A program made the translations under genes and the position numbers. A model generated the notes under the pieces. That model ran no database searches. It was not told where the DNA came from and saw only the letters and a list, made by a program, of their open reading frames with translations. A stretch of 64,000 nucleotides of DNA, taken from positions 1 through 64,000 of the IMG/VR virus record IMGVR_UViG_3300025133_005514; one strand, given 5' to 3'. This stretch comes from a virus. Below are positions 6,080 through 42,780 of the stretch, in pieces; positions within the stretch are counted from its first letter, which is position 1, and each line of letters begins with the position of its first letter.

Positions 6080-8086
6080 ATGGCGACGATCAAGGCGATG
6101 ACTGCGGAGAGGTCCCAGCGCATCGCTTGGTGGCTCACGACCCGCGACGAGTACGAGGACTTTGAGGTCTTCGCGGAGAGGTACATCAAGGTGCTCAACC
6201 GCCCTGAGACGAGCGGTCATGGTCGCATCGGTTCCTTCGTCCCCTTCAAGATGAACGCGGTGCAGCGCGACCTGTATCTCCGCCTGGAGCAGGCGAAACG
6301 CGAGGGGCGACCCGCTCGCTTCGTGGTCCTGAAGGCTCGCCGCATGGGCATCTCTACGATGATCCAGGCGTACCAAATGCACCAGTGCCTGACACGCCGC
6401 AACCGCAAGGCGTTCGTGGTGGCTCTGGACCGCACGACGACGACGAACATCGCCGCGATGGCGAAGGCGATGCACGCCAACCTCCCCTCGCTGCCGGTCC
6501 CGATGAAGGAGGCTGCGTGGCGCGCGGCGACGAAGGGTGACCCGCACTGCGACCTCCGTCCGCAGCACCGGCGCAGCAACGACAACGAGCTCTGGTTCAC
6601 GCACCCGTCGGACGAGACGAAGGGCTTGAACTCGCGCTTCCAGGTGGTGCTCGCAGACTCGGTGGATTCGACGCGCGGCTTTGAGTGCCACCTAGCGCAC
6701 CTGAGCGAGATCGCCTTCTATGCGGACGCCGCCGCGTTCATGCTCCCGATGATGCAGACGGTGTCGGACGATCCCGACACGATGGTCATCCTAGAGAGCA
6801 CGGCGAACGGCGCCGGCGGGTTCTTCTACGACACCTTCTGGCGGCACTGGAAGGGCCCCGGCGGTCCCGAGATGGACGGCAAGGGTCAGGAGATCGAAGG
6901 CGACTGGGAGTCGATCTTCTACCCGTGGCACGCCATGCCGGACTACCGGCGCTCGCTGCCCGAGGGCCTGACCACCGACGAACTCCTCAAGGCGATCCCC
7001 ACTGAACTCTTCGACATGGTCGATGAGTACGAACTGGACCCGGAACAGACCTACTGGGCGTACCGGTGCTGGGCCGACAAGTGCCAGGCCGACTGGGACC
7101 TCTTCCGTCAGGAGTACCCAGGCAAGCCCGAGGAGGCGTTCGCTCACGCAGCCCGCCGCGTGTTCGCCGAGAAGGATCTGGCGATCATCGAGAAGTTCAC
7201 GGAGAGGTCGAAGCCCATCCTCGTGGGCGACATCATCGACCGCAACGACGACATGGACGACCGTACGCGCATCGCCACCTACTCGGACATGAAGCCCGAG
7301 ATGGTGGGCGCCGGGAAGGATGGTCCGTTGTGGTTGTGGGAGAACCCGCGCGAGGGGGGTCGATACGTCATCTTCTGCGACCCGTCGAGCGGGAGTCAGA
7401 CCGGGGACGACACAGCGATTCAGGTCATCGACCAGGAGACGCGCCGCCAGGTGGCTGAGTTCCTGCGCCCCATTAGCCCCATCGAGGCGGCGAGGAAGCT
7501 CTGCTTGCTGGGGCTGTACTACAACGATGCTCTGGTGGCGTGGGAGATCAACGGTGTCGGGCATGCGGTGAGCCATGCGCTCATGGCGTCTGGCTACTGG
7601 AACCTGTTCGTGCGCGAGCAGGTTGAGAGCATCGGCGACCAGAGCCGGTTCGGGTGGGCGACGAACATCAGCACCAAGCCGATGATGATCGCAGTGGGCG
7701 AGGACATCGTTCAGCGCCGCCTGCCGATCATCCGCTCAAGCCGTCTGATTCGACAGATGCGGATGTTTCTGGAGTTCGCGAAGAACGCCACGAGCACCGG
7801 CGGCATCATCGCTGGCGACGAGAACTACCGTCGCGTGCGGTGCGGGTCGCCGCCTGGGGAGCACGACGATGCTGTGATGTCGTGGCTCGGCGCGCAGATC
7901 GTCTGCGACATGGAGTCGGGGCGGAATGCGTGGGAGGCATCTTCAGGGGACGAACCTGAGCCGCTCCGTGTACCCTCGGGGCACATCGGATCGAACAAGA
8001 CCATCCACTGGGACGAGGTGGAGGTACACACTGGGCGGGCCGACTCGGTAGTCGATGATGGGCCCATCGGGTCTGGTTGGATCTGA
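6080..8086 (+). CDS. terL: Terminase large subunit, copy 1
   Basis: This 668-residue protein has the two halves of a phage packaging motor. The N-terminal ATPase has a Walker A variant in VVLKARRMGIST (residues about 82-93), an acidic Walker B region around HLSEIAFY, and a coupling motif ILESTANGAGG. The C-terminal RNase H-like nuclease has its first aspartate in VIFCDPSSG, a glutamate in VAWEINGVG and a late aspartate in PPGEHDDAV. It would cut concatemers and pump DNA into procapsids through the portal. The start ATG directly follows the previous TAG. It is homologous to, but strongly diverged from, the TerL at 38338-40266. Both share the RQEYP region, a SxLGW/SRFGWxTN segment and PPGxHDDA. 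Confidence 0.92.
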   Translation: MATIKAMTAERSQRIAWWLTTRDEYEDFEVFAERYIKVLNRPETSGHGRIGSFVPFKMNAVQRDLYLRLEQAKREGRPARFVVLKARRMGISTMIQAYQMHQCLTRRNRKAFVVALDRTTTTNIAAMAKAMHANLPSLPVPMKEAAWRAATKGDPHCDLRPQHRRSNDNELWFTHPSDETKGLNSRFQVVLADSVDSTRGFECHLAHLSEIAFYADAAAFMLPMMQTVSDDPDTMVILESTANGAGGFFYDTFWRHWKGPGGPEMDGKGQEIEGDWESIFYPWHAMPDYRRSLPEGLTTDELLKAIPTELFDMVDEYELDPEQTYWAYRCWADKCQADWDLFRQEYPGKPEEAFAHAARRVFAEKDLAIIEKFTERSKPILVGDIIDRNDDMDDRTRIATYSDMKPEMVGAGKDGPLWLWENPREGGRYVIFCDPSSGSQTGDDTAIQVIDQETRRQVAEFLRPISPIEAARKLCLLGLYYNDALVAWEINGVGHAVSHALMASGYWNLFVREQVESIGDQSRFGWATNISTKPMMIAVGEDIVQRRLPIIRSSRLIRQMRMFLEFAKNATSTGGIIAGDENYRRVRCGSPPGEHDDAVMSWLGAQIVCDMESGRNAWEASSGDEPEPLRVPSGHIGSNKTIHWDEVEVHTGRADSVVDDGPIGSGWI

Positions 8087-8094
8087 GGAGCAAG

Positions 8095-10017
8095 ATGAAG
8101 TTCGACCCCCACCAGTTGCCCCTGAAGGACGAGGACGCGCGCAAGCTTCTCGACCTGGTGATCGACGACGCAGCCACCCTCTCGGGCATGTTCAAGGACT
8201 GGGACAAGCTCATCAAGGCGTACAAGCTCGGGCCCTCCAAGGGAGCCGCCGAGGGCAGCCAGGGGATCGCCCTCATCTCCAGCGTCATCCAGTCCTTGAA
8301 GCCCTACCTCTTCAACAGCGACCCCGCCGTGTACGCGAAGGCGAAGCGCCTAACGAAGGACGGCGACGAGGACAAGCGGGCGAAGATCACTGAGGCGGCG
8401 CTGACGTACCAGTGGGACGAAGCTGGGATGCGCGACGAGGTGGACAAGCTTCTGGACGACGTCCTCATCTTCGGCGCCGCCTTCGCGCGCGTGGGTTACG
8501 AGCCCAGTGGCGAGTTCGTGCCTATCGAGGACTACGACCGCGACACGGACATCGACGACTGGGTCGATGACCCTGACGTGCAGACTCTGCGCGACCGCCT
8601 TGAGGAGCTCGGCCTGCAGCCGGACACGCCGATGGCTTGCGTGACCTTGAAGCGGTGGAGCCCGTACAACGTGGCGTTCCCGGCTGGGTACGATGAGATC
8701 GGCAAGATGCCTCGGTTTGAGTTCCGGCACCTCCTGCCCATCGACATGGTCAAAGGCTCGGACAAGTTCAGGAACACCTCGCACCTCGAGGCCAACAAGG
8801 TCATCGCCAACGACGGCAAGGGCAGGGCCGGCTCCCAGTACCAGGCGGGACGTGGTGGCAAGCCGGGTCATATCGAGGTGTGGGAGGTCTGGCACGTCGA
8901 GTACCGCAAGCGTCTGGTACTGCGCGACGGGCGCAAAGTCCGGCGCATGGTCCGCGAGATGCACGTCACCTGGCTGTGCGACCAGGCGAACAAGGAGAAG
9001 GGCTCGACCTGTACGGTCCTGAAGAACCACATCACCGCACTGGACATGGAGGGCTACCCGGTGGTGGACCTCCGCTTCGCTCGCTGCCCAGACGCCTTCT
9101 TCGGCCTGTCGTTGGCGGCTCAGGTCATGCCCATCGCGGAGTGGGTCCAAGAGCTCGTCGTCAACGGCGTCGCTGGCCTGAAGGCTGCGATGAACCTGAA
9201 GACGCTCTATAACCCCGACAAGCTCGGGGAGAACGGGAAGGCGCTGCTCGCGGCCCCCTACCCGTCGATGGTCCCTATCAAGGACAAGCTCGGGGTCGGC
9301 AACGCTGTCGCCAACCTGGTGATGCCGGCGTTCCCCCAGGAGTTCCAGGGCACCCTGGGCCTGCTCAACGCGCTCATCTCGCGCGTCTCTGGCAGCGATG
9401 AGGTGGTGCAGGGCGGTCGCTCAAGCGCGGGCTCCGCGACCGAGGTGGCGTTCCGCGCGTCGGTGCTGCAAGGGCGCAGCCAGTACAACCTGAAGACGTT
9501 TGAGGGCTTCCTTCAGCGCGCGTTGCGGAAGGTACTGCAGATCATGCAGCAGTACTTCGAGTCCGAGCGTTGGGTCCGCATCACCGGCGACGAGACGCCT
9601 GTCGCCTTCACCCGCTCTGACATCCGAGGCGAGTTCGACGTCGGCGTCCACGCTGGCAGCACGCGCCCGCGCACACCGCAGGACGAGCGCCAGGCAGTCA
9701 TCGGCTTCTTGGAGTACCTCGGCACTGCCGCGAACGCGATGCAGATGGCTGGCGTGCCGCCCGAGGTTATGGCTTCAGTGTTCGGTAAGGTCGCTGACAT
9801 CTGGGACCAGAACCTGCCCGCCCTCGTGGACTCATTCGCCTCGATGGCGAGCGGAGCTGTGGCGAGCGCCGCTCCTCCTGGGATGGCGGGTCCACCTCCT
9901 GGCGATGTCGCCTCTGGATCAGCGGTTGGTCCCGGTGGCGAGTCGCTGAACGTCCCCGCCGCCGGCCGCCTGCAGGCTGTCGCTCGGGAGGGCGGTCTTC
10001 CCCCAGGGGCTGTGTAG
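8095..10017 (+). CDS. Portal protein, copy 1
   Basis: The 640-residue protein reads as a podovirus-type portal. It has an N-terminal helical segment, WSPYNVAFPAGYDEIGKMP in the wing, a long stem region with LGLLNALISRVSGSDEVVQG, then SAGSATEVAFRASVLQGRS, a stretch characteristic of the portals that join TerL and head. The C-terminal 80 residues are rich in Ala, Gly and Pro. ATG 8095 is chosen because GGAG lies 4 nt upstream; an in-frame TTG at 8077 would overlap terL. It is homologous to the portal at 40843-42780: both have the NALL/VYQRGGxxxxxTATEV-type region and end in low complexity. Confidence 0.88.
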   Translation: MKFDPHQLPLKDEDARKLLDLVIDDAATLSGMFKDWDKLIKAYKLGPSKGAAEGSQGIALISSVIQSLKPYLFNSDPAVYAKAKRLTKDGDEDKRAKITEAALTYQWDEAGMRDEVDKLLDDVLIFGAAFARVGYEPSGEFVPIEDYDRDTDIDDWVDDPDVQTLRDRLEELGLQPDTPMACVTLKRWSPYNVAFPAGYDEIGKMPRFEFRHLLPIDMVKGSDKFRNTSHLEANKVIANDGKGRAGSQYQAGRGGKPGHIEVWEVWHVEYRKRLVLRDGRKVRRMVREMHVTWLCDQANKEKGSTCTVLKNHITALDMEGYPVVDLRFARCPDAFFGLSLAAQVMPIAEWVQELVVNGVAGLKAAMNLKTLYNPDKLGENGKALLAAPYPSMVPIKDKLGVGNAVANLVMPAFPQEFQGTLGLLNALISRVSGSDEVVQGGRSSAGSATEVAFRASVLQGRSQYNLKTFEGFLQRALRKVLQIMQQYFESERWVRITGDETPVAFTRSDIRGEFDVGVHAGSTRPRTPQDERQAVIGFLEYLGTAANAMQMAGVPPEVMASVFGKVADIWDQNLPALVDSFASMASGAVASAAPPGMAGPPPGDVASGSAVGPGGESLNVPAAGRLQAVAREGGLPPGAV

Positions 10018-10848
10018 GTGGCGAAGCCGCACATCGAGATTGGTGAGCTCCGCAAGTCTGGCCCCGTCGAGGTCGTGGCTGGGCGACTCTCCCAGTTGTG
10101 GCAGACACTGACCGGGGACGGGGTGAACATCAAGTCCACGGACTCGTCCCTTCCGTCGGGCGCGCTTCAGGTCTGGAAGTTCGGCCACAACGCGGCGGTG
10201 GGCACCTCCTACGAGACGATTTGGATCGTCGGCGGTCTCTACCCCTGGGGGTCGTGGAAGGCGTGGGATGACGCAACCGGCTCGGTCGTGACACTCAAGT
10301 CTACCGACGCTGCGGACACCTCCGTCGAGGTCGCGTGGGAGGGGCTCGGCGCCGACGGTGAGCTTGTCTCGGGAACGACGACGACGGACGCTGTGGACGG
10401 GACCACGGGCGTAGCGGTCGCCACCAACCTCAACCGACTACATCGCGCGTATCGAGTCACCGCCGGCACATCGACAGGCTCGCTCCAGCTCACAGTGGGT
10501 GGCACCGTCATCGCGCAGATTGAAACCGACCTCGCGGCGACCCAGTTGGGTCTGTACACCGTCCCGGCCGGGTACACCGCCTACCTCCAGAGTCTGGACA
10601 TCGCCGTGGACGACAACAGCGACGGACTCATCCAGTTGATGACTCGACCTGACGGGGACGCTTTCTACTCGCGCAGCGGGGGGCTTATGGTCAGCGGGGC
10701 GACGAGGATCAGCTACGCCAGCAGCGGATGGTCCTCGGGTCTTCCCTTTGTGGAAGGTACGGACATCGACGTGCGCGGGGTAAAGGTGTCCGGTGGCGGA
10801 TCGCCCTTGATGTCGGTCAACTTCCACCTGGTATTGGATTCAGACTGA
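10018..10848 (+). CDS. Virion structural protein, beta-rich (276 aa)
   Basis: The start GTG follows the portal stop directly. After a short helical N-terminus the sequence is rich in Thr, Ser, Gly and Val, with QVWKFGHNAAVGTSYETIW and GGLYPW near residues 50-80, a pattern I associate with structural proteins of environmental podoviruses. Residues 150-276 read as beta strands (YTVPAGYTAYLQSLDIAVDD). It may be a head or receptor-binding accessory protein. No capsid or scaffold gene follows this first terminase/portal pair in the window, which is unusual. The stop shares bases with the next ATG (TGATG). Confidence 0.65.
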   Translation: MAKPHIEIGELRKSGPVEVVAGRLSQLWQTLTGDGVNIKSTDSSLPSGALQVWKFGHNAAVGTSYETIWIVGGLYPWGSWKAWDDATGSVVTLKSTDAADTSVEVAWEGLGADGELVSGTTTTDAVDGTTGVAVATNLNRLHRAYRVTAGTSTGSLQLTVGGTVIAQIETDLAATQLGLYTVPAGYTAYLQSLDIAVDDNSDGLIQLMTRPDGDAFYSRSGGLMVSGATRISYASSGWSSGLPFVEGTDIDVRGVKVSGGGSPLMSVNFHLVLDSD

Positions 10849-11162
10849 TGAACATCGACCCCAACAAAATCCTTCACGGAGCCATGGCTGCCGTGGTCGG
10901 CATCACCATCTCCTTCGTGTGGGAGGCGAACTCCCGGCTCGCCATCCTGGAGGATGACGTGGACGAGATGCTCGGCGTGGTGGAAGACCTCCACCCCCGG
11001 GGCACAGCTGCCCGTGGCGGGCCCCTCGCTCTCTTCCCCTTCGGCGGTAAGGACGACAGGTCCGAAGCCCGTCAGGAGCGGATGGAGGCCCTCAAGGAGA
11101 GAGCCCCGGTGGCTGACGATGACGACTCCGGGGATGATGACGACAGCGGAGGTTCGGAGTGA
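10848..11162 (+). CDS. Single-span membrane protein with acidic tail (104 aa)
   Basis: One hydrophobic segment (residues 8-25, ILHGAMAAVVGITISFVW) is followed by a soluble part that ends in an Asp/Ser/Gly-rich run (DDDDSGDDDDSGGSE). It is the first gene of a five-gene membrane cluster overlapping by 4-14 nt, which I read as a lysis or envelope cassette. It could be a pinholin-like or antiholin-like partner, but one span and an acidic tail are not diagnostic. Confidence 0.55.
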   Translation: MNIDPNKILHGAMAAVVGITISFVWEANSRLAILEDDVDEMLGVVEDLHPRGTAARGGPLALFPFGGKDDRSEARQERMEALKERAPVADDDDSGDDDDSGGSE

Positions 11163-11530
11163 CTGACTACACCCTCATCGTGGCCATCGGCTGCGTCATT
11201 GCCGTTGCCAGTTACGGCCTGGTAGGGCAGCTGCTCAAGCCGATGCTTCGGCTGTGGGCCCGCATGAAGGCGCGCAAGGCTGGGCGAAAGCTCTACCCGG
11301 AGGAGGTGGAGTTGTTCAAGATCATGACCCAGAGCGGTGCCGTAGTTAGCGGCGGGCTCATGGGTGCTGGGCCCATCTGGCCGGAGATGATTCCCTGGGC
11401 GATGGGTCCCTTGCTAGGGCTGGCCTTCGGCTCCCTCGCCATACCGCTCCACTCGGCTGTGAAGAAGGCGCTGCCCGAGAAGGTGGCCTCAGTCATCAGT
11501 GGCAAGAGCCCCAGAAAGTTGGACCTGTGA
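11159..11530 (+). CDS. Holin-like membrane protein (123 aa)
   Basis: Starts with GTG overlapping the upstream TGA. It has a first span near residues 5-25 (LIVAIGCVIAVASYGLVGQLL), a basic loop (RLWARMKARKAGRKLY), then one or two hydrophobic stretches between residues 60 and 100. Small size, two to three spans and charged ends fit a holin, which would form holes in the inner membrane at lysis time, but holins have no conserved motif, so this is an architectural inference. Confidence 0.5.
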   Translation: MTDYTLIVAIGCVIAVASYGLVGQLLKPMLRLWARMKARKAGRKLYPEEVELFKIMTQSGAVVSGGLMGAGPIWPEMIPWAMGPLLGLAFGSLAIPLHSAVKKALPEKVASVISGKSPRKLDL

Positions 11531-11847
11531 GCCCCGATCCAATCAAGTCAGCCACCCCCTGGATGCTGGCCCTGCTGGTGGCCTGTGTCGGAATCGGGGT
11601 CGGCGTCACCTTGTTCATCCTGGGGCGTCAGGCTGAGGCTGTGGGTGCTGGCGCTGTGACGGTTGCTGCTGCTGCAAAGACCGTCCGCAAGACCAAGCGC
11701 TCCGCGAAGCAGCGGGACAAGGAGGAGCGGGCCGAGGTTGTGGACCTGCAAGAGCGGCTCGATAGCTCCAGCGCCAACGCGGACCTGGAAGCCATGCAGG
11801 AGAAGCTGAGGGCTAGGCGGGAAGGGGGCGACGATGGCGCTGCGTAG
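11527..11847 (+). CDS. Membrane-anchored coiled-coil protein, i-spanin/Rz-like (106 aa)
   Basis: An N-terminal span (residues about 12-32, WMLALLVACVGIGVGVTLFIL) is followed by a basic linker and a Lys/Glu/Gln-rich coiled coil (residues 55-100), the layout of inner-membrane spanins. The next gene starts 14 nt before its end and encodes a lipoprotein, just as Rz and Rz1 genes overlap in many phages. A canonical Rz is longer (about 150 residues), so the call is tentative. Confidence 0.5.
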   Translation: MSPDPIKSATPWMLALLVACVGIGVGVTLFILGRQAEAVGAGAVTVAAAAKTVRKTKRSAKQRDKEERAEVVDLQERLDSSSANADLEAMQEKLRARREGGDDGAA

Positions 11848-12268
11848 CTTGCTGCTGGTGCTGCTGCTCTGCTCGGGGTGCGGGCACGTCGCTCACAAGG
11901 GCCCCATCTGGAGCGCCGACTTCGCACGAGTCGATGTGCCCGAGGTCCCGGCTGTGCCGGAGGATGCTCCCGAGCCTGAGATCATGATGGAGGGCAGGGA
12001 GGCTCCCTTCACAGGGATGCTGCTGTCCCCGGAGGAGTTGGACTCCCTGCTCGTGGCTGCTGAGCAGCGTGAGGTTGTTGTCGAGGCTCTCGACCTGTCT
12101 TACCGGGGCAGAGCCCTGGACAGGGAGGAGGCTGAGGCGATCGTTGCCGCCCGGGAGCTACAGCTAGCCGAGGCTCGCAAGACCCAGGGCAGGATGTTTG
12201 CCGTAGGGATGGGGGCTGGCATTGCCGGCACCATGGCGGCGGTGCTGGCTATCGTTCTGGCGAAGTGA
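11834..12268 (+). CDS. Lipoprotein with C-terminal membrane span, unimolecular-spanin-like (144 aa)
   Basis: The N-terminus (ALRSLLLVLLLCSGC) is a lipoprotein signal with the acylated cysteine at residue 16. The middle is periplasmic and acidic-helical, with Pro/Glu-rich residues 30-50. Residues about 119-143 form a hydrophobic C-terminal span with glycines (FAVGMGAGIAGTMAAVLAIVLA). An outer-membrane lipid anchor plus an inner-membrane span in one chain is the layout of u-spanins such as T1 gp11, which fuse the two membranes at the end of infection. The gene overlaps its neighbours on both sides. If correct, the host has an outer membrane. Confidence 0.55.
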   Translation: MALRSLLLVLLLCSGCGHVAHKGPIWSADFARVDVPEVPAVPEDAPEPEIMMEGREAPFTGMLLSPEELDSLLVAAEQREVVVEALDLSYRGRALDREEAEAIVAARELQLAEARKTQGRMFAVGMGAGIAGTMAAVLAIVLAK

Positions 12269-12456
12269 CCGACAAGGACTTCCGCTGCTGGCTCGGCTCC
12301 GGCCTGTACCTGCTGCTCATGGTCTCGGTCGTGGTGTTCCTGACCCAGGTCCAGATCCCCCCGGAGAACCGCGACATCATCGTGACGGTGATTGGCGTGA
12401 TGGCCGGAGGGGTTGGGGCTGCGGTCAGCCGGTTTGTGGGTCGGAGGCAGGAGTAG
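12265..12456 (+). CDS. Small two-span membrane protein, holin-like (63 aa)
   Basis: GTG 12265 overlaps the lipoprotein stop. Two hydrophobic segments (residues about 11-28 and 38-54) joined by a short loop (QIPPENRD), with a basic C-terminus (RFVGRRQE), give the shape of a class II holin. The same operon holds another holin candidate at 11159, so one may be the antiholin. Its 3' end overlaps the converging gene on the other strand by 32 nt. Confidence 0.5.
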   Translation: MTDKDFRCWLGSGLYLLLMVSVVVFLTQVQIPPENRDIIVTVIGVMAGGVGAAVSRFVGRRQE

Positions 12457-12715
12457 GGGGCAGCCGGCTAAGGCCCAGTACCTGGACCTCCTTGTCCGTC
12501 AGCTTGGAGAGCGCTGTCTCTCGGATGACGTGGTCGTCGGCGTAGTCGGGGCACATGAATACCGCCTCGGTCAGGCATTTGTGACAGGCAGCCAACTCGG
12601 AAGGCCCTCGCTCACCGAGCCCCACGAGGGGGACTCCGGTGATCCCGCACATTCCGCACTCCGTCACCCTTGCGAGATAGAGCCTGATGTCGGGCTTGTG
12701 GGGTCGTCGTCTCAT
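12425..12715 (-). CDS. Zinc-ribbon-like hypothetical protein (96 aa)
   Basis: Four cysteines in two pairs (CGMC near residue 20, CHKC near residue 44, plus one more in FMCPDY) suggest a zinc ribbon. The start ATG 12713-12715 overlaps the stop of a 25-codon upstream peptide, so translation is coupled to it; a longer start at 12784 lacks a ribosome site. This is the last gene of the leftward operon 12.4-16.8 kb. Function unknown. Confidence 0.5.
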   Translation of the reverse strand: MRRRPHKPDIRLYLARVTECGMCGITGVPLVGLGERGPSELAACHKCLTEAVFMCPDYADDHVIRETALSKLTDKEVQVLGLSRLPPTPASDPQTG

Positions 12716-12789
12716 ATCAGCCCACCCAAACGTAGCCCTGGGAGGGCACGTCCTCTGCTCGGTCCATCCATGAAACGTGTCCACACCAT
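12712..12789 (-). CDS. 25-residue coupled peptide (MVWTRFMDG...)
   Basis: A short frame starts at ATG 12787-12789 only 5 nt after a strong GGAGGT ribosome site and ends with TGA overlapping the ATG of the zinc-ribbon gene. The ribosome site is the best in this stretch, yet the frame in front of the downstream protein is only 25 codons, so it may act as a translational leader. It is basic, with no recognised motif. Confidence 0.4.
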   Translation of the reverse strand: MVWTRFMDGPSRGRALPGLRLGGLI

Positions 12790-12799
12790 CTCAAACCTC

Positions 12800-12994
12800 C
12801 TACGACCAAACGCGGTCGCCGCTGTACTTGTACAAACCTTCCTTCGGCTTGCTCGATCTGCGTAACCACTCTTCAAATCCACAAGCACACCGCCGCCTCC
12901 ACCATGGAGGGGCGATGGCTGTCTCGGGGTCGTAGTCTCCGAACCGCTCCCAAGCTGTATAGCGGTGCTTGGTTCCGCTAAACCTGCATGTCAC
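12800..12994 (-). CDS. Small Cys-containing protein (64 aa)
   Basis: The start GTG 12992-12994 overlaps the TGA of the HNH gene upstream. The product has an early cysteine (MTCRFSGTKH), a tryptophan-rich centre (PPWWRRRCACGFEEWLRR) and a tyrosine-rich tail. A CxC pair followed by Gly could bind metal. Short proteins of the type HRYxAWxxxxxC-CGxxxW are common in phages and have no known role. Confidence 0.5.
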   Translation of the reverse strand: MTCRFSGTKHRYTAWERFGDYDPETAIAPPWWRRRCACGFEEWLRRSSKPKEGLYKYSGDRVWS

Positions 12995-13548
12995 GGGATG
13001 TTCTTCCAGGTCTTCCGAACAACCACGGCCCAAATGTTGGAAGCAGAAACCCCGAAGCCCCGAGCTAGGTCGGCCCTGCTCGCCCCCAACGCTGAAAGCC
13101 TTCGAATCGTTCTGACGTCCTTTACAGAGAGCTTGGCCCTGTGGTGCCGACGGCCGCTAGCCTCGCGACCATGCTTGGTCCGGTCTGCGGCGTTCTCTTT
13201 GTGGGTTCCCCACTTAAGGTTGGTGGCGTGGTTGTTGGACGGGTCGCCATCAAGGTGGCGGCAAATCCGTCCACCCCTGGCCTCCCCGCTGAACCCCTCC
13301 AGGACCAGGTGATGTATCTGCTTGCAGCGCCTTGTCCCACACCTGGACAGGTGGACGCGACCGTACCCCTTGACCACGTCAGGCTTCAGTGTCCTCCCAT
13401 ACCTCTTTCGCTTAATTACGGAGCCCCATCGGCCCATGGCCATAACCTCTGAGGTCAGGCTCCTCACTCGTCCGCATGATGAAACCTCGTAAAGACCAAC
13501 GTAGCCCTCCACCGGAACCCACTCTTCTGACTTGCAACAATCGGACAC
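12991..13548 (-). CDS. HNH homing endonuclease with NUMOD4 and HTH domains
   Basis: The 185-residue protein has a NUMOD4 DNA-binding motif at its N-terminus (EEWVPVEGYVGLYEVSSCGRVRSL, residues 8-31), an HNH nuclease core (IHHLVLEGF, then CRHLDGDPSNNHATNLKWGT, with the histidine and asparagine positions of the betabetaalpha-metal fold) and a C-terminal helix-turn-helix (GASRADLARGFGVSASNI). Such free-standing enzymes cut DNA and spread their own gene. GTG 13546-13548 is chosen because GGGAGG lies 6 nt upstream; the longer frame lacks such a site. It is related in layout to the endonuclease at 31362-32099. Confidence 0.88.
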   Translation of the reverse strand: MSDCCKSEEWVPVEGYVGLYEVSSCGRVRSLTSEVMAMGRWGSVIKRKRYGRTLKPDVVKGYGRVHLSRCGTRRCKQIHHLVLEGFSGEARGGRICRHLDGDPSNNHATNLKWGTHKENAADRTKHGREASGRRHHRAKLSVKDVRTIRRLSALGASRADLARGFGVSASNIWAVVVRKTWKNIP

Positions 13549-13625
13549 AATCAACCTCCCGCTTCCTCTAAGGTACCACATCATTTCAGGACGATTGTGG
13601 CACCCTAGTGGAAGCGGCAGGCCAT

Positions 13626-14105
13626 CTAGACGGAGCCCTCGGCTACGGCTTCCTGTGCCTTGACCAGGGCTCGGGCTGCCGCCCCGGTGAACCGAGGCTC
13701 TTGGAAGCCGCCGGCCTTTGTCTTGACGTACATGGGGTGGATAGACTTCACCCACTGGAGCGTCGTCTTCCTCGCCACGTTGGTCCTCAGTCCAATGTGA
13801 TCAACCAGGTCCTGCATCGACAGGTTCCACGGAGCGCGCTCGCCGTCCTCCCACACGGTTCCGTCGGGACCGTTTAGGCCCTGGAGAACCTTGAGACGGA
13901 ACAACCACTCATCGAGGTTGGCCTCCTCGATAGAGCCCAGGTCTACCGACATGGTCTTCCAGATGAGGAGGTCGGTGGTCGGGTTCATCCGGGTCCACAC
14001 GCCCCCCTCACTCTTGAACCACTGGTCCCCCGGCTGCTCGGTTTCTACAGAGGTCTGCCAGACAACGGAGTCGGGCACGTCGGTCACGTTCCAGTTGAGA
14101 CTCAT
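13626..14105 (-). CDS. Hypothetical protein (159 aa)
   Basis: I do not recognise this protein. It has a tryptophan-rich N-terminal half (LNWNVTDVPDSVVWQ, then DQWFKSEGGVWTRM) and a helical C-terminal half with a basic DNA-binding-like stretch (GLRTNVARKTTLQWVKSIHP). The start ATG 14103-14105 lies 4 nt after the stop of the upstream gene. It is separated from the HNH gene by 77 nt that include the HNH ribosome site. Confidence 0.6.
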   Translation of the reverse strand: MSLNWNVTDVPDSVVWQTSVETEQPGDQWFKSEGGVWTRMNPTTDLLIWKTMSVDLGSIEEANLDEWLFRLKVLQGLNGPDGTVWEDGERAPWNLSMQDLVDHIGLRTNVARKTTLQWVKSIHPMYVKTKAGGFQEPRFTGAAARALVKAQEAVAEGSV

Positions 14106-14109
14106 TCCA

Positions 14110-15165
14110 TCACCCAATCTCAAACACCGGCTCGTCCGACACCGGCTCACGCTTCTTCGGCCTGCTGCTCAGTCGGACCTTGCCGGTCTTGCTCTCGATG
14201 GACAGGGCGTCAATCTGCCACTCCCTCATCCAGGCCAGCACCAGACCGACCTCGTCCTTGAGGTAATCCATGCTGGACTCGTCCCGCTTCACCCGAGGCT
14301 TGGGCTGGGGCTTCAGGATGACCTGAGGCTCAGGCGGCAGGGGCAGCGGCCGAGACTTCATCTTGCCCACAGCCTCGTCAACCACCTTCGCCGCATCGAG
14401 TTCAGGAAGCGCCTTCTCTGGCTCCTGGGCGGGCTCCGGCTCCGAGGGCGGGGCCATACCCAGCTTGTGAGCTTCCGGCGTCACAGAGCCGTTCAGGCGG
14501 GCTCGGATATCAGCAACCCTTTCCGTCGCATCAGACAAGAGGACAGTCATCCTGTCCCAGGCCATGACACCTCGGGGCATCGGCATGGGCTCCACCGGGA
14601 CCCTCGTGACCCTGGGTCCGACGTAGTTGGCGGGGTAGGTAGTGGAGCTACCCCCACGAGGGAGACCTCCCAGGCCCTGAGCCCTACGGCGGCGAGCCAC
14701 CTGTCGGTTGATGCGCTTCGTGTCGGAAACCAGTCCGAAAGACTCGGCCGCCGAAGCAATGTCCCTTGACGTCGCATCGGGCCACGCATCCAGAGCGCCC
14801 TCAACCCACTCGGTCCAGCAGCGAAACAGCTGGGGCGGAGGGACTCGGGAGCCGGGAACGATGGCCCCGTGCTCAGCAAGCTCCTCAACCAAGGAGGCGG
14901 CACCCACAGACCGAACCAGAGTGTGGGCCTCCTTGTCGGACCTCCACCAGTCGTTGCAGACGTCGGTAGCCCGGTGGCTCGCAGCCCGAGGCACAACGAC
15001 CACCACTCGGGCCCTCTTGGGGATGCGAGTCCTCTCGTTGGGGAAGACCTGTGTGGGGTTGAAGCCAAGCTCTTTGAGCCTGTTCATGTGGGACCTGCCG
15101 TACCGCTCCTTCGCAACCACGAAGATGGAGTCCGCAGGGACTGCTCTATACATTTGCTCTCGCAC
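14110..15165 (-). CDS. Hypothetical protein with Rossmann-like N-terminus and Pro-rich linker (351 aa)
   Basis: GTG 15163-15165 lies 5 nt after AGGAGTG. Residues 10-95 alternate beta strands and helices (SIFVVAKERYG, RARVVVVVPRAASHRATDVCNDW), which resembles a Rossmann or DUF2325-like fold without a clear nucleotide motif. Residues 150-190 are basic (VARRRRAQG), then a Pro/Glu-rich linker follows (residues 245-300) with a small C-terminal domain. It could be a DNA- or nucleotide-sensing regulator, but this is a guess. It is the largest gene of the leftward accessory operon. Confidence 0.6.
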   Translation of the reverse strand: MREQMYRAVPADSIFVVAKERYGRSHMNRLKELGFNPTQVFPNERTRIPKRARVVVVVPRAASHRATDVCNDWWRSDKEAHTLVRSVGAASLVEELAEHGAIVPGSRVPPPQLFRCWTEWVEGALDAWPDATSRDIASAAESFGLVSDTKRINRQVARRRRAQGLGGLPRGGSSTTYPANYVGPRVTRVPVEPMPMPRGVMAWDRMTVLLSDATERVADIRARLNGSVTPEAHKLGMAPPSEPEPAQEPEKALPELDAAKVVDEAVGKMKSRPLPLPPEPQVILKPQPKPRVKRDESSMDYLKDEVGLVLAWMREWQIDALSIESKTGKVRLSSRPKKREPVSDEPVFEIG

Positions 15166-15634: not shown

Positions 15635-15636
15635 GC

Positions 15637-35786: not shown

Positions 35787-35986
35787 CCATGATGGAAGAA
35801 TGGGAAGGCGTTGTAGCCACGCTGCCGTGGATTCGGAAGTTCGCGATGGGGATGATGTGCCCGTTGCACGGAGCCATGCCTGACGAGCGCTGCGCCCCCG
35901 ACCTGAAGTGCTGCTGGATGCGGGTTGAGTACGCCGAGTTGGTCATCCACGCGGACCTGGTTGGGGTTGACGAGGTGGGTGACTAG
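35783..35986 (+). CDS. Small Cys-containing protein (67 aa)
   Basis: ATG 35783 overlaps the helicase stop (ATGA). The product has CPLH, CAPD and CC in MCPLHGAMPDERCAPDLKCC, which could bind one zinc ion. The N-terminus is acidic and the C-terminus reads as a helix. Function unknown. The last 20 nt hold the promoter proposed for the next gene. Confidence 0.5.
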   Translation: MTMMEEWEGVVATLPWIRKFAMGMMCPLHGAMPDERCAPDLKCCWMRVEYAELVIHADLVGVDEVGD

Positions 35987-35996
35987 ACCGTATGGT
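35967..35996 (+). promoter_or_regulatory. Promoter candidate for a leaderless XRE gene
   Basis: TTGACG (35967-35972) and TATGGT (35991-35996) lie 18 nt apart. A transcript would start near 36003, exactly at the ATG of the XRE gene, which has no ribosome site. GGTTAAC (35994-36000) overlaps the -10, so a repressor could switch it off. Confidence 0.4.
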
Positions 35997-36002
35997 TAAC
36001 TT

Positions 36003-36290
36003 ATGGAATTCGGCGAACTGTTCAGAGCAAGACGGAAGCTGGCGGGGTGGACCCTGAGGGACGTGAGTTCGGCCCTGGGAATCAGTTCGGCCTACGTCTC
36101 CATGGTCGAGCGGGGGCTCAAGCTCCCCATGAGCGACGACCTCCTGGTCACCATGGCGAAGACCTGGGGCACAGACCCTGGCGAGCTAATCCAGGCAGCC
36201 GGCGCAGCCCGTGGGTTCTTCCGGGTTCCGGCTGACGGCGACGACCACAACGAGAAGATGGCCAGAGCCGTCATGAGGTGCATTGCATGA
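36003..36290 (+). CDS. XRE-family repressor-like regulator (95 aa)
   Basis: Residues 5-60 are a clear XRE helix-turn-helix: LFRARRKLAGWTLRDVSSALGISSAYVSMVERGLKLP. The remaining 35 residues are a short acidic tail without a cleavage-type domain, so it is a Cro- or small-repressor-like protein. No ribosome site precedes the ATG, which agrees with a leaderless message from the promoter just upstream. Likely it binds GGTTAAC-type sites here and at 32461, but that is inference. Confidence 0.75.
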   Translation: MEFGELFRARRKLAGWTLRDVSSALGISSAYVSMVERGLKLPMSDDLLVTMAKTWGTDPGELIQAAGAARGFFRVPADGDDHNEKMARAVMRCIA

Positions 36291-36496
36291 TCAAGCCGGT
36301 AGCTGGCGAGGTATGGACCGACGGCAAGACGGACAAGGTTCTGATGCACGTCACCCACTTGGAAGGCCCCTCGGGTGAGTCCTGGCGGGTTGGTTGGGGT
36401 GACGGCGCTGTATTCCGCTACTGGCCTCCCGAGGCTGTGAAGGGTAGAAAGCGTGCAGAAGCCTGGCCCCCGAAGGGCTGGACCAAGCGAGGTTAG
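36287..36496 (+). CDS. Hypothetical protein (69 aa)
   Basis: ATG 36287 overlaps the repressor stop. The product is mostly beta, with tryptophans spaced through it (EVWTDGKTDKVLMHV, SWRVGWGDGAVFRYW), the look of a small SH3- or Tudor-like barrel. Basic C-terminus (KGWTKRG). Function unknown. Confidence 0.5.
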   Translation: MIKPVAGEVWTDGKTDKVLMHVTHLEGPSGESWRVGWGDGAVFRYWPPEAVKGRKRAEAWPPKGWTKRG

Positions 36497-36498
36497 CG

Positions 36499-36813
36499 AT
36501 GTTCGACCCGACCGAGATGACCGTGAAAGAAGCCATCCCAGCCCTTGAGGGGTTGAGCCAGGAGGACCTCCTCGGCGTTCGGATGGCAGAGATGGCCGGC
36601 AAGGACCGGGTCTCCCTGATTCGGGAGATTGACGAGCACCTTGAGGCGCTGATCGATGACCTCGTTGAGATCGTGGCCGAGGACCTCATCGACCCCGAGC
36701 CAGTCAAGGTGGTCGAGGTTGTGCCCACCATCTCGGTCAAGGACTGGTTCCGGCTGCCCAAGAGCCACCGGAAGATGTGGATTCGGGACGGCCGGACCTT
36801 CCGCAAGCGGTAG
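36499..36813 (+). CDS. Hypothetical acidic helical protein (104 aa)
   Basis: Starts 2 nt after the previous stop. It is acidic and helical over residues 15-70 (IREIDEHLEALIDDLVEIV), and the last 25 residues are basic (LPKSHRKMWIRDGRTFRKR). This charge split suggests binding to both protein and nucleic acid. No family recognised. Confidence 0.55.
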   Translation: MFDPTEMTVKEAIPALEGLSQEDLLGVRMAEMAGKDRVSLIREIDEHLEALIDDLVEIVAEDLIDPEPVKVVEVVPTISVKDWFRLPKSHRKMWIRDGRTFRKR

Positions 36814-37728
36814 GTGACCACGGTTGTCGATCTCTTCGCTGGCGTCGGCGGGTTCACCCACGGGGCTAAAGAAGCGGGGGCGACCTGCCTGACGGCTGTA
36901 GAGCTTGCTCCAGCAGCAGCCGAGTACCACCACCTGAACCACCCCGAGGTGGACGCTGTGGAGGCAGACCTCTCCTCCTTCAGGGTGGACCGCCTGCCGG
37001 CTCACGACATCCTTCTGGCATCACCGCCTTGCACCGGCTTCACCCCGGCACGTGGGGCAGACAAGGCGGGGCACCAAGCCGCCAGGAAGCTATCCTGGGC
37101 CTGCGTGAAGGCCCTGAAGGCCCACCGCCCACCAGCAGCGATTGTCGAGAACGTCCCAGAGTTCCTCCGCTGGTCAGAGTTCCCAGCGTGGGAGACCGCC
37201 TGCGTCAGGCTTGGGTACTCAGTCTCGGGACACCTGGTGGACTCCGCCAGGTTTGGCGTTCCCCAGAACAGGGTTAGGGCCATCCTGGTTCTCACGCGGA
37301 CCAAGGCCAGGCTGAGGCTCAAGGAGCCGGACCTCGCAAGAGTGTCAGCCGACCAGGCACTGAACTGGCACAAGGGGAGGTGGATCAGCTGGAAGTCGAA
37401 GCCGCTGAACCAGAGGGTTATGGACCAGATAGACTACGGACGTAGTCGCGGGTGGTTCAGGTTCCTCGCCCCCTACTACGGCTCTGGCTCCGGCCGTAGG
37501 GCTAGGTCCCCGAGCCTTCCGGTTGGGACCATCACCTCGTTCGACGGGTGGCGTCTGGTGTACGGGGAGCACTCCCGGATGATGACCCGGTCTGAGTACA
37601 TCCTGGTTGCAGGGTTTCCTGAGAGCTACGTTTTACCGAACCGGAAGAACGATGTCGTTACGATGGTGGGTAAGGCCATTACCCCAGCGGTTGCGAAGTG
37701 GGCTTGTGAGGGGGTGATGAGTGCGTAG
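36814..37728 (+). CDS. dcm: DNA cytosine-C5 methyltransferase
   Basis: The 304-residue protein has all key motifs: motif I VVDLFAGVGGF (residues 3-13), motif IV SPPCTGF with the catalytic cysteine near residue 71, motif VI VENVPEF near 111, motif VIII QNRVRAILV near 151 and motif X GKAITPAVA near the end. The target recognition region (residues 185-250) is short. No restriction enzyme is next to it, so it looks like an orphan phage methylase for protection of its DNA. GTG 36814 follows the previous stop directly, and its 3' end overlaps the next gene by 8 nt. Confidence 0.9.
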   Translation: MTTVVDLFAGVGGFTHGAKEAGATCLTAVELAPAAAEYHHLNHPEVDAVEADLSSFRVDRLPAHDILLASPPCTGFTPARGADKAGHQAARKLSWACVKALKAHRPPAAIVENVPEFLRWSEFPAWETACVRLGYSVSGHLVDSARFGVPQNRVRAILVLTRTKARLRLKEPDLARVSADQALNWHKGRWISWKSKPLNQRVMDQIDYGRSRGWFRFLAPYYGSGSGRRARSPSLPVGTITSFDGWRLVYGEHSRMMTRSEYILVAGFPESYVLPNRKNDVVTMVGKAITPAVAKWACEGVMSA

Positions 37729-38341
37729 CAGCAGACGAGTCGGCGGAGCAAGAACCTGGGCCACAGCCGCCCAGGCTGAAGACCATCAGCGCGAAGCTCT
37801 CAAGCAGAAGCGCGGTGGCTCACACGGCCGGACACAGAGCGTTGTCCCAGAATTCAGAGATGAGAACGATCGCTACCTTTGGGAGCTAGCTCGCTGGAGG
37901 GCCGGCTCCTTTATCCGTGTCGGCTTCTGTAGCGCCTCAGGATGGATGGGGTCTGACGAGCGAGTCTATGTTGGGCACCCGGTTCACCCCGGGGCCCCCG
38001 TGTTTGAGGACCCCGACTGCTTCAAGGCGTTCAAGGCAGCGAATGCTGCCGGGTACATCGGCTGCACCCAGGTGGCCAACGCTGCCCCCTTCCGCATCAC
38101 GAAGTACGAGGTCCGCAAGGTCATCCAGTCGAACCTGGACAAGTTGAACGTCGGGTTCGTCCGCTACCCGCACAAGATGAACAGGTCCAAAGTGTGGGTC
38201 TGCACCTTCCTGCATGAGGATGAGGTGGCGGACTTCCTGGCTTCGTTCAGGGAGTACGCGGCTGCGTCCATCAAGAAGATGAGCGCCGGGTTGGTGCCGT
38301 TCAAGCAGGACCTGATGAGGAACTTCCGGGAGATCAAATGA
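37721..38341 (+). CDS. Hypothetical protein before TerL-2, possible small terminase subunit (206 aa)
   Basis: GTG 37721 follows GAGGGGGTGAT. Residues 50-110 read as alpha/beta (ENDRYLWELARWRAGSFIRVGF); residues 105-150 hold an HTH-like helix pair (AANAAGYIGCTQVANAAPF, then ITKYEVRKVIQSNLDKL). Its stop overlaps the TerL-2 start, where a small terminase subunit is expected, and its size suits that. Without a match to a TerS fold this stays a position-based call. Confidence 0.55.
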   Translation: MRSSRRVGGARTWATAAQAEDHQREALKQKRGGSHGRTQSVVPEFRDENDRYLWELARWRAGSFIRVGFCSASGWMGSDERVYVGHPVHPGAPVFEDPDCFKAFKAANAAGYIGCTQVANAAPFRITKYEVRKVIQSNLDKLNVGFVRYPHKMNRSKVWVCTFLHEDEVADFLASFREYAAASIKKMSAGLVPFKQDLMRNFREIK

Positions 38342-40266
38342 GCATCAAGAAGGGCGAGAAGGAAGACCCAGCAGCGGACATCCTCACTTCGGGCGACTAC
38401 GACAACTTCACCCAGTTCGCTGAGGAGTACCTCAAGATTCAGACGAAGGCCGGCAAGCTCAAGCCGTTCAAGCTGAACCGGAGTCAGGTCATCCGGGAGA
38501 CCCTCATCACTGAGATGGAGGAGGCCGGGCTGCCGGTGCGAGTGTGGGAAGCGAAGGCCCGCCAGCTGGGCTGCTCCACCCACGTCCAGGGCCGGATGTT
38601 CTGGAAGACCATCACCAACTACGACGAGGGTGCAATCGTTGCTGCCCACGCAGACCCGGCGGTACGGCAGGTCTTCACGAAGTCGAAGGTGTTCTACGAC
38701 TTCCTGCCGGACCACATGAAGCCGATGACTCGGTACAACAACCTGTACGAGCTGGACTTCCGGGCCTCCAAAGGTAGCGGCGGTCTGCGGTCCAGGTTCG
38801 CTGTTACGACGGCGCGAGCGGTTGACGACATGCGCGGGTTCACGGCGCGTCAGGTTCACGCCTCAGAGGTAGCGTTCTTCAACGACCCCGAGTCCTTCTT
38901 CTTGGCGCTGCTTCAGGCGGTACCGGACGAGCCGGGCACCATGATCTACAGCGAGTCCACCTGTAGGGGCTCGGGTGACTTCCACCACAGCACCTACATC
39001 AACGCCAACGTGTGGTGGGACGAGATTCCGCCCTGGATGCCGCTGAAGCGGGCCTACCCCGGCCACCCAGACAGCACCTGGTACGCGCTGTTCACGCCCT
39101 GGTTCCTGATGGAGGAGTACACCAGGGACCTCCCGATGCCGGAAGCCGAGTACAGGCTGACGCTGGATCACGATGAGGTTGAGCTTCTGGAGCGGTTTGA
39201 GAGCTACGTCTCTCTGGAGAATCTCCAGTGGCGCAGAGAGACGCTCATCAGCAAGTGCGGCGGTTCGCTCGACCGGTTCCGTCAGGAGTACCCCAGCACG
39301 GACAAGGAGGCGTACTCCGCCACCGGCAGTCCGGCGTTTGATGGTAGGCACGTGGAGGCCGTTCAGGACCGTCACGGCTGCTGGTGCAGGGTCTGCAAGC
39401 CCCGGGGTCGGGTGGACCCTGGGACCACCGACTGCCCCGAGCATGAGTGGTACGACATCGTTGACGCGGCGGACACCGAGCGAGGCAGACACCGGCTGTT
39501 TACCAGCTTCAAGCCCGAGCTAATCGACGCCATGCCGGGCCAGGGGTCTATGTCGGTTTGGAGGCACCCGGAGAGCAGCAAGCGCTACGTCATCGGGGCC
39601 GACATCAGCAACGGGTCGCACGGCGGTGACTGGGACGTGGCCTCGGTGTTTGAACTGTCGAACATGGAGCAGGTAGCTGAGTGGCGCGGCAAGGCCGACC
39701 TGGATATCTACGCCGAGATTCTGCTGATGCTGGCCCTGCGCTACAACAACGCCCAGCTGGCCCCCGAAATCAACAACATGGGCGGCGGCATCGTCGCGAT
39801 GCTTCGGCAGACCCAGTACTGGAACTTCTACCGGAGGCGGATCACCGACTCGCTGCGCGGGCCGACGTCACAGCTTGGCTGGAGCACGAACAAGCGGACC
39901 AAGCCCGAGATGGTGGGCTTGATGCAGAAGGCCCTGAAGGATGGGTACATCAAGATCCGGTCCCAGATGGCCCTGACAGAGATGCGGGCCTACCGGATGA
40001 ACATCAGCAGAGATGCGTCCGGTGGCGACACACGGGTGGACATGTCTGCCCCTCCAGGCAAGCACGACGATGCCCTCATCGCCACGATGATCAGCAACGC
40101 GGTAGCCCACCACACCCCAGGGCACGGAGCAGCGCTGCCGAAGGCTGATCGGCCTCAGGCTTCGTCGGACCACAACCAGTGGACTGCGGACATGTGGGAC
40201 AAGTACGAGAAGGCGCCGCAGTCCATGGCGGTCCGCCGGCTCAAGCGAGCTATGCGGAAACTGTGA
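38338..40266 (+). CDS. terL: Terminase large subunit, copy 2
   Basis: The 642-residue motor has Walker A in EAKARQLGCST (residues 71-81), a Walker B region VHASEVAFF, coupling motif IYSESTCRGSG, and a C-terminal nuclease with VIGADISNG, APEINNMGG and PPGKHDDALI carrying the acidic residues. It shares overall plan with TerL-1 (6080-8086), including RQEYP, LGWxTN and PPGxHDDA, but identity is visibly low. It heads the full structural gene set of this window, so it most likely serves the particle encoded at 42.8-64 kb. ATG overlaps the previous stop. Confidence 0.92.
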   Translation: MSIKKGEKEDPAADILTSGDYDNFTQFAEEYLKIQTKAGKLKPFKLNRSQVIRETLITEMEEAGLPVRVWEAKARQLGCSTHVQGRMFWKTITNYDEGAIVAAHADPAVRQVFTKSKVFYDFLPDHMKPMTRYNNLYELDFRASKGSGGLRSRFAVTTARAVDDMRGFTARQVHASEVAFFNDPESFFLALLQAVPDEPGTMIYSESTCRGSGDFHHSTYINANVWWDEIPPWMPLKRAYPGHPDSTWYALFTPWFLMEEYTRDLPMPEAEYRLTLDHDEVELLERFESYVSLENLQWRRETLISKCGGSLDRFRQEYPSTDKEAYSATGSPAFDGRHVEAVQDRHGCWCRVCKPRGRVDPGTTDCPEHEWYDIVDAADTERGRHRLFTSFKPELIDAMPGQGSMSVWRHPESSKRYVIGADISNGSHGGDWDVASVFELSNMEQVAEWRGKADLDIYAEILLMLALRYNNAQLAPEINNMGGGIVAMLRQTQYWNFYRRRITDSLRGPTSQLGWSTNKRTKPEMVGLMQKALKDGYIKIRSQMALTEMRAYRMNISRDASGGDTRVDMSAPPGKHDDALIATMISNAVAHHTPGHGAALPKADRPQASSDHNQWTADMWDKYEKAPQSMAVRRLKRAMRKL

Positions 40267-40843
40267 CGACCCGGTATTCCCGGGGCTGGCCGGTAGCCTC
40301 CAGGGCTCCGCTGCGGGACAGGTAGGAGATGGCTCCCCTGGCTTGGCCGCCGGTCAACTTCGTGCTGGCAACCACATCTCGGTAGCTGACGATGCCGTCG
40401 TTCTCCTTCACAGCCCACCTCAGCACGGTCTCGGAGGGTTTTTCGAAGAGGCCGGTGCGCTTGTCAACGTGGATGATCTCCCCGTCGGCGTCCACCTTGA
40501 TGACCTTGCCGACCTTGCCCTTGCGGGGGGAGGGGTCGTCGCCGTCGTCGTGGACGTGGGTCCCAACATGGGCTGTCTGCCGGTCGCGCTCCTCCTTGCC
40601 GTAGAACTTCTTGCCCTTTAGCCCGGGGGTAGCGGTACGGCCCCACCATCCACGGGGGGTGATGTCCTTGGGGGCCCCATCAGCCGGCCACCATCTCTTG
40701 CTGGTAGCAACCTGGCCGCAGGTTCCGCACTGCGTGTCCCTGAAGCCGTCCTTCTTGGACTGCATGTACAGGTAGGCAGAGGTGTTGAGTTCCCACGCTG
40801 CGCCGCAGGAGGAGAAGGAGCAGATCATCGGGTAGATGGGCAT
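40250..40843 (-). CDS. Zinc-ribbon protein with winged-helix C-terminus (197 aa)
   Basis: CSFSSC near residue 8 and CGTC near residue 40 give a zinc ribbon. The middle (residues 75-125) is basic and Gly-rich, and the last 70 residues read as a winged helix (SETVLRWAVKENDGIVSYRDVVAST, then LTGGQARGAISYLSRSGALE). It lies on the minus strand, coupled to the portal gene upstream (TGATG), and converges with TerL-2. It may be a DNA-binding packaging or transcription factor. Confidence 0.65.
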   Translation of the reverse strand: MPIYPMICSFSSCGAAWELNTSAYLYMQSKKDGFRDTQCGTCGQVATSKRWWPADGAPKDITPRGWWGRTATPGLKGKKFYGKEERDRQTAHVGTHVHDDGDDPSPRKGKVGKVIKVDADGEIIHVDKRTGLFEKPSETVLRWAVKENDGIVSYRDVVASTKLTGGQARGAISYLSRSGALEATGQPREYRVVTVSA

Positions 40844-42780
40844 CAGAAGTTTCCTCCGAAGGGTCCGCCACCGCCGCCGGCACCGGAGATTGGAACAGCC
40901 TGACCAGCCCCCGGACGGGGTCCTCCACCAGCCAACTCAGCCTCGCTCGGGGCCGGGAGACCCGGTCCACCACCACCTGAAGCACCAGCGGTGCCGGCGT
41001 TAACCAGCTGACCCAGCGGCGACATGAGCCCGCTGTTGGCCTGCCAGAGCGAGAAAGCCTTCTCCAGGTAAGAGCGCACCGTCTGGTCGTCAACCATGCC
41101 CAGTTGCGCCAACTGACCGAAGGTCTCCAGGGTCTTGTCGATGGTGGAGAGCAAGCCGATGTAAGCCTGGGCCTCCTCAGCCGGGTCCTTGCCGATGGCG
41201 CTGCCGGCCTCGATGTTGACGTCGTAGGAGGAGCCAACCTTGGACGAGTCGAAGGTCTCAAAGCCCTCCTGCCCAGACTCCCCGATGACCCGCATGTGCC
41301 GAGGCTCATCCCAGTACTGGGCAACCACGGACAGGAGCACGCGGGAGATGTCCTCCATAAACTGCTCAACAGCAGCGAGCCGAACGCCGGCACGGCTGTT
41401 GGAGCCCTGAGCAGCAACGGACACCTCGGTAGCCGTGGTGCCCTTCCGGCCCACGCCGCCCCGCTGGTAGACGTCTACGCCCGACAGTTCGTACATCATG
41501 CGCTGAAGGCCCTGAAGGACCGTCATGGTGGTGCTGGGCGGCGGAGCCTCAGGCAGGAGCATGACCACCTTGCGGATGTCGTCCGTGGCCACCGGAAGCT
41601 CGGCAACCTCCAGGTCGATGCCGCTCTCCAGTAGCGCAGTCAGCTGCCCGCCTTCCAGGGCTCCCTGGAGGGCGACGAACTTGCGCTTGCTGGACCTCTC
41701 GTGGTGGTTGAGCAGGTAGTTCCACTCCGTGTTCAGGCGGCTGCTCGGCTCCTGGATGATGGCCAGGTCGGCTGCGGTGGTGGTGTACAGCTTCCCGGGG
41801 ATGCGAACGAAGGACAGGGTTCGGTAGGGGTAGCCGCTGATGTCCATCGGGTCGTTGATGTGTCGGAGCACGCAGTCCTTCGGGGACAGCCCATCCCGGG
41901 GCTTCACAATCCAGAGGATGCGGCGCTGCATCGTGTCCTTGACACGGGCCCAGTAGCGAATCTCGTAGACCATGACGTGGTCGGCCGCTGTGTCGGGCTG
42001 ACTGTGTCGGTTGTGAGGGTCGTTCCCGGCCAGGGAGGTGGGGATGGAGTCCATCACCCAGGAGTCGGCCTCCAAAGCCTTGGGCACCTTGAACCGTCCG
42101 TCGTTCCGAAGGTCGTCAAGCATGAAGGGGATGCGCTCGGCGACCCAGGGGGCCTTGCGGAGCTTGTCGTAGCCCAGAGGGACCAGCAGGTTCCAGGGGG
42201 CGATGCGGTTGAAGACCGGCATGTCGTCCTCGGAGTCCGAGGCGATGGGAATGTCCACCTCTGCCATCATCCGAAGCAGGGTTCGCCGCTGCTGGTCGTC
42301 CAGCTGGGTCTCTTCAGTCCCCTGAGTCGGACCGCGTTCGTACTCATCAGCCATCAGGAAGGCGTCACTGTCGTCGTAGCTGACCTTGCCCACACCTAGG
42401 TTGAACAGAAGGGCGTCCAAAGCGGCCTCCTGTGTGGTCTCCAGAGCCCGAATCTCCCGCCACACGTAGTTCACGGTGGCCTCTGCCACCTTGGCGGTCT
42501 CCTCGTCACCCGGTCGGCGAGGCTTTGCCCGGATGTACGGGTTGGTTGAGACGATTGAGGGCAGGAGGGAGTTGGCCGTAGCCAGCAGGAAGTTGAAGTT
42601 GACCCCGCTCTCCGGCGTCACCAGCGAGTTGCGGTCGTGCTCCTTGAGACCCTCGTAGTCGGACAAGATGTCCCGCCAACGGGGGAGAATCTCCTCGTCA
42701 AGGAAGTCTTCGACAGCGCTAATCTTCTCGGCCCAAGCCGAGACTTCGCTTTCCGCAATGGGCATCTTTCTCTGTGTCAT
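40843..42780 (-). CDS. Portal protein, copy 2, encoded on the opposite strand
   Basis: The 645-residue protein has portal features: SLLPSIVSTNPYIRAKPRRPGDE near residue 75, INRIAPWNLLVPLGYDKLRKAP-type wing, a long helical stem with LNTEWNYLLNHHERSS, and VDVYQRGGVGRKGTTATEVSV near residue 440, followed by a Gly/Pro-rich tail. It resembles portal-1 in order and motifs. Its gene runs left while TerL-2, scaffold and capsid run right, which is not usual. ATG 42778-42780 follows GGAGT. With the zinc protein it forms a small leftward operon. Confidence 0.88.
   Translation of the reverse strand: MTQRKMPIAESEVSAWAEKISAVEDFLDEEILPRWRDILSDYEGLKEHDRNSLVTPESGVNFNFLLATANSLLPSIVSTNPYIRAKPRRPGDEETAKVAEATVNYVWREIRALETTQEAALDALLFNLGVGKVSYDDSDAFLMADEYERGPTQGTEETQLDDQQRRTLLRMMAEVDIPIASDSEDDMPVFNRIAPWNLLVPLGYDKLRKAPWVAERIPFMLDDLRNDGRFKVPKALEADSWVMDSIPTSLAGNDPHNRHSQPDTAADHVMVYEIRYWARVKDTMQRRILWIVKPRDGLSPKDCVLRHINDPMDISGYPYRTLSFVRIPGKLYTTTAADLAIIQEPSSRLNTEWNYLLNHHERSSKRKFVALQGALEGGQLTALLESGIDLEVAELPVATDDIRKVVMLLPEAPPPSTTMTVLQGLQRMMYELSGVDVYQRGGVGRKGTTATEVSVAAQGSNSRAGVRLAAVEQFMEDISRVLLSVVAQYWDEPRHMRVIGESGQEGFETFDSSKVGSSYDVNIEAGSAIGKDPAEEAQAYIGLLSTIDKTLETFGQLAQLGMVDDQTVRSYLEKAFSLWQANSGLMSPLGQLVNAGTAGASGGGGPGLPAPSEAELAGGGPRPGAGQAVPISGAGGGGGPFGGNF

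Follow-up and report, generated by a model that had tools for sequence, protein, structure and literature searches.

Two terminase/portal pairs in one marine virus record: very probably two phages joined at a common gene

Terminase, portal and head genes and the repeat at the joins

The window analysed here, a stretch of 64,000 nucleotides, corresponds to positions 1-64000 of the 73,074-bp IMG/VR record IMGVR_UViG_3300025133_005514; higher coordinates are those of the record. It contains two terminase/portal pairs, which are attributed below to two phages, B and A. The first pair is located on the plus strand and consists of TerL-1 (668 aa, 6080-8086; phrog_2, terminase large subunit, E 5e-23) and portal-1 (640 aa, 8095-10017, or 646 aa from an upstream TTG at 8077; Pfam SU10_portal, E 3e-15). 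The second comprises TerL-2 (642 aa, 38338-40266, plus strand; phrog_24361, terminase, and phrog_5989, terminase large subunit) and portal-2 (645 aa, 40843-42780; SU10_portal, E 3e-24), the latter on the minus strand, opposite to TerL-2 and to the scaffold and capsid genes. An ORF of 197 aa, zinc-ribbon-like by eye (40250-40843), shares the minus strand with portal-2. The preliminary description had presented 38338-42780 as a plain pair; both genes exist there, but they are not colinear, portal-2 and the 197-aa ORF being reversed. All four genes are intact, and the family models (PHROG, Pfam) identify both TerLs as terminases and both portals as P22/SU10-type. TerL-1 and TerL-2 are 29% identical over 625 aa (E 4e-72) and the portals 25% over 553 aa (E 1e-31), in agreement with the initial proposal of two homologous but diverged pairs. 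The TerL and portal trees that had been called for place the copies in different clades with 99-100% support by both measures, copy 1 with 11 B-type sequences (100/100 for TerL-1) and copy 2 with 17 A-type sequences.

It had also been stated that scaffold and capsid genes follow pair 2 only. This is correct inside the window, where the scaffold (42874-43656, plus strand; phrog_3927, E 3e-6) and the major capsid protein (43669-44742, plus strand; phrog_9953, E 2e-42) of phage A are found, but a second set is located outside it, at record 69732-71830. This set is composed of a scaffold (69732-70706; phrog_3927) and a major capsid gene (70739-71830; phrog_9953), and in the related contig L006 it lies directly behind portal-1. 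With its zinc-ribbon gene, the complement belonging to TerL-1 and portal-1 extends over record 69.1-71.8 kb. Hence a Caudoviricetes head module, with TerL, portal, scaffold and major capsid genes (PHROG/Pfam), is present in both A and B, and the candidate explanation of a second module lacking its own capsid genes was ruled out by the set at 69.7-71.8 kb.

Comparison of the record with itself revealed a sole repeat, R, of 703 bp, direct and 97.7% identical, whose copies lie at 10161-10863 (plus strand) and 68379-69081. The copies differ at three positions in the first 133 bp and at 13 in the last 34 bp, and between these they share an exact core of 536 bp (10294-10829 and 68512-69047). From left to right, copy 1 passes from B to A and copy 2 from A to B, so that the whole record reads B_left, R, A, R, B_right. 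The left part of phage B (1-10293, plus strand), delimited by its matches to contigs L005 and L006, carries NeuB, hexapeptide transferase and cytidylyltransferase genes (Pfam) followed by TerL-1 and portal-1. Phage A (10830-64000 and on to about record 68511, plus strand), delimited by relatives G001-G007 and contig L007, carries early genes, TerL-2, the head genes, a giant protein of 3490 aa and lysis genes. Both joins lie inside the exact core, the passage from B to A at 10294-10829 and the other at 68512-69047, and not near 10.85, 12.46 or 16.8 kb, the positions at which the preliminary description had proposed to look for a break. The same repeat thus stands in direct orientation at both joins, and it exceeds typical k-mers and short reads. 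When one period of 58,218 bp is excised at R, phage B is left and the piece removed is phage A. The k-mer sets of the joined record and of the two separate genomes are identical for every k tested up to 537; consequently, short reads or k-mers below that length cannot distinguish the two forms.

Most of a gene of 276 aa (10018-10848, plus strand; phrog_8198, function unknown), common to both phages, is covered by R. In the window it starts as the B gene and ends as the A gene: copy 1 starts like the gene of L006 and ends in VLDSD, while copy 2 starts differently and terminates in ALEPS, as L006 does. The gene is located behind the portal in B and behind an endolysin gene in A, and it is nearly identical in phages that are otherwise diverged. 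Among the 22 B-type contigs with portal and capsid, only L006 has it between portal and zinc-ribbon genes, and for this reason it looks like a recent arrival in B; a recent transfer between the A and B lineages is likely. Distant relatives of the protein are cyanophage proteins annotated as virion or tail fibre. Apart from R, the DNA similarity between A and B is confined to one 43-bp stretch and a small gene, methyltransferase-like by eye and without a Pfam hit, present in A at 27390-27959 and in B at L005:1075-1623 and 72% identical in DNA over 246 bp.

Relatives of the two phages in independent contigs

The arrangement of phage B can be read in L006 (IMGVR_UViG_3300025141_002147), which matches 5669-10863 and then directly 68379-73074. 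The outer parts of the record are thus joined through R in independent data, in the order B_left, R, B_right and with no A. When compared with the B_left plus B_right model, L006 showed 30 mismatches over 9188 bp, none of them in the 703-bp R region; it is a close strain (99.4-99.7%; 99.7% over 5669-10863), not an identical one. After TerL-1 and portal-1, its order is the 276-aa gene, a zinc-ribbon-like gene, scaffold, major capsid and a tail-connector-like gene. It follows from this order that the scaffold and capsid of pair 1 are those found 5.7 kb past the end of the window. A contig from another sample, L005, is 100% identical over 1-10415 and reaches 1717 bp further upstream. It ends about 122 bp inside the exact core of R, a position which is suggestive, but only suggestive, of the point at which a short-read graph would branch. 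The B-type capsid was found in 27 contigs, and in the 22 that also have the portal the two genes share a strand and are not separated by any A gene, the order being (TerL), portal, zinc-ribbon, scaffold, capsid within a span of a few kilobases. The B-type relatives reach 56.7 kb. The sugar genes of B (1029-4116) are of the type used in the synthesis of nonulosonic (sialic-like) acids, and its hexapeptide transferase bears an added helix-turn-helix domain. Upstream of the window, at L005:174-479, there is an ORF of 101 aa that by eye resembles a GroES co-chaperonin.

The A-type portal and capsid occur together in 44 distinct contigs, none of them with B-type module genes beyond cross-family similarity. 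A single TerL locus was found in all A-type records searched bar one, the partial record G006, which has none. Judged by gene order, the inner part of the record is found alone, or in an order consistent with its closing on itself, in two of these records. G002 (55,133 bp) has the A gene order and no module 1, and is apparently complete, because it has exact terminal repeats of 97 bp. In G001 (61,044 bp), which is without the 276-aa gene, the homologue of the 67.6-kb gene (g076, 79%) precedes by about 1 kb the counterparts of the genes at 11.2-12.5 kb (g017-g020, 66-92%), the order predicted by closure of A on itself through R. Contig L007 is 99.99% identical over 28338-46045. Scans of viral_contigs with exact 40-mers from the two junction flanks of A did not find the exact A-R-A junction, so that this junction is seen solely in the gene order of G001. 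We infer that A is circular or circularly permuted, and it is probably one complete phage of 58,218 bp. No relative of the A capsid was detected in GTDB genomes, so no host can be assigned to A. The 3490-aa protein is encoded by a single ORF (54933-64000 and on to record 65405), parts of which have relatives at 25-44% in other A-type genomes.

A Megablast search of positions 1-20000 gave no match among phage records. At the protein level, Roseobacter phage CRP-7 (MK613349, 58,106 bp) and Podoviridae sp. ctuNt529 (MW202692) are, for TerL-1 and TerL-2 alike, among the best annotated matches, with 26-28% identity, and the stretches compared have a single annotated TerL and a single annotated portal. 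The length of CRP-7 is close to the 58,218 bp of A.

Origin of the joined record

The record is very probably a chimeric metagenome contig that unites two marine phages of related but distinct lineages, each with one motor, and the join would have been made in the assembler and not by recombination in a cell. A and B would have been merged because they have one nearly identical gene in common. In the proposed course, A and B co-occur and share the gene of the 276-aa protein, with its 536 exact bp; A would assemble as a cycle of 58,218 bp passing through this gene and B as a linear path through the same gene. The assembler would then enter on B, cross R, go once round A, cross R again and leave on B, each phage contributing a single TerL, portal, scaffold and capsid gene. 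That two genomes are joined had been one of the possibilities first offered, and it is now strongly supported by R, by L006, by the single-module relatives, by the gene order of G001, by the k-mer sets and by the TerL and portal trees. Finding the first 10-17 kb elsewhere only as a separate phage had been named at the outset as an outcome contrary to the initial reading; this is what was found for the first 10.3 kb, and 10.83-17.6 kb belongs to phage A. As for composition, the tetranucleotide distance between the two B ends is 0.168 and that of either end to any A stretch is at least 0.231, which backs the two-genome reading but is supportive only, because the B-B value falls among the distances measured within A (minimum 0.145, mean 0.224).

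Chimeric contigs arising from regions common to co-existing viruses made up less than 5% of the contigs of at least 10 kb in simulated viromes (PMC5610896), and the repeats of mosaic phage genomes are known to give rise to such contigs (PMC10563150). In those documented cases, as here, two genomes are joined at a repeat longer than the reads or k-mers. The present record differs in that two parts of one genome enclose the whole of the other, which is apparently circular, and so the contig resembles a phage with a duplicated module.

In an alternative account, homologous recombination between A and B at their common gene, for example in a co-infected cell, could produce a replicating co-integrate: one crossover in R gives exactly this structure, the common stretch has sufficient length for recombination, and a gene for a RecT-like annealing protein is present in A (28142-29188). 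Such a genome would, however, be oversized (58.2 kb plus all of B) and would carry two full head modules, B occurs without A in L006, and an extra event is required which the assembler walk does without. Moreover, the two modules occur together in none of the 44 A-type contigs and in none of the 22 B-type contigs with portal and capsid. We regard a true recombinant of this kind as very improbable.

The same counts bear on the other arrangements raised by the preliminary description, which had suggested looking for contigs that keep both modules in this order; there are none in either set. A captured module, whether mosaic, decoy or cargo switch, implies a foreign TerL/portal pair taken up without a capsid. 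The position of scaffold and capsid behind pair 2 only, inside the 64-kb window, would suit it, as would the seemingly recent movement of the 276-aa gene between lineages, but B sequence begins again at 69.05 kb, includes a scaffold and a capsid of its own and continues to the end of the record, in an order that matches L006 and the B-type relatives. With B sequence at both record ends and the evidence of L006, capture is already refuted and its probability is close to nil. Two diverged packaging modules side by side might also recall a satellite riding on phage A as the source of module 1. B, however, has scaffold, capsid and connector genes of its own and relatives of up to 56.7 kb, which define an ordinary phage lineage and not a small capsid-less element; a satellite-helper pair thus has practically no chance of being the explanation. 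Neither a second packaging module nor a captured one was borne out: the modules were found together in none of the related contigs examined, and module 1 comes with a scaffold and a capsid of its own.

Under the preferred reading, that of two phages joined in assembly, the two-motor phage as originally posed is almost certainly an artefact. The record should not be cited to illustrate duplicated packaging genes, nor should it be treated as one genome; when it is split, A (58,218 bp) and a portion of B are obtained, and with the sequence of L005 and L006 this portion comes to about 19 kb. One gene common to otherwise diverged phages can conceal a chimera from k-mer-based checks.

The inverted portal of the A lineage

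The part of the record that deserves attention is the portal of A, whose inversion is conserved in its lineage: it is opposite in strand to the capsid in all 44 A-type contigs. The zinc-ribbon-like gene next to it shares the strand of the portal in the 31 contigs where it was found (31/31). TerL is on the capsid strand in 32 of 34 contigs and flipped in the other two. In B and in CRP-7, unlike in the A lineage, TerL, portal and capsid are colinear. When it is read along the portal strand, the portal block of A would correspond to the B order, portal and then zinc-ribbon gene, but flipped. This flip leaves a gap of 93 bp (42781-42873) which would be expected to hold putative promoters firing in both directions. 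No inverted repeats convincingly flank the portal block, so there is nothing to suggest an invertible switch. A search of the literature, which was not exhaustive, found no precedent for an inverted portal; the arrangement is a conserved, unexplained and genuinely odd gene orientation. The portals of CRP-7 and ctuNt529 are on the TerL strand, that of CRP-7 also on the capsid strand, and in this they differ from phage A. Myxococcus phages Mx9 and Mx8 have capsids among the nearest annotated ones to that of A (24-28% over about 70%), a distant likeness that concerns one protein only.
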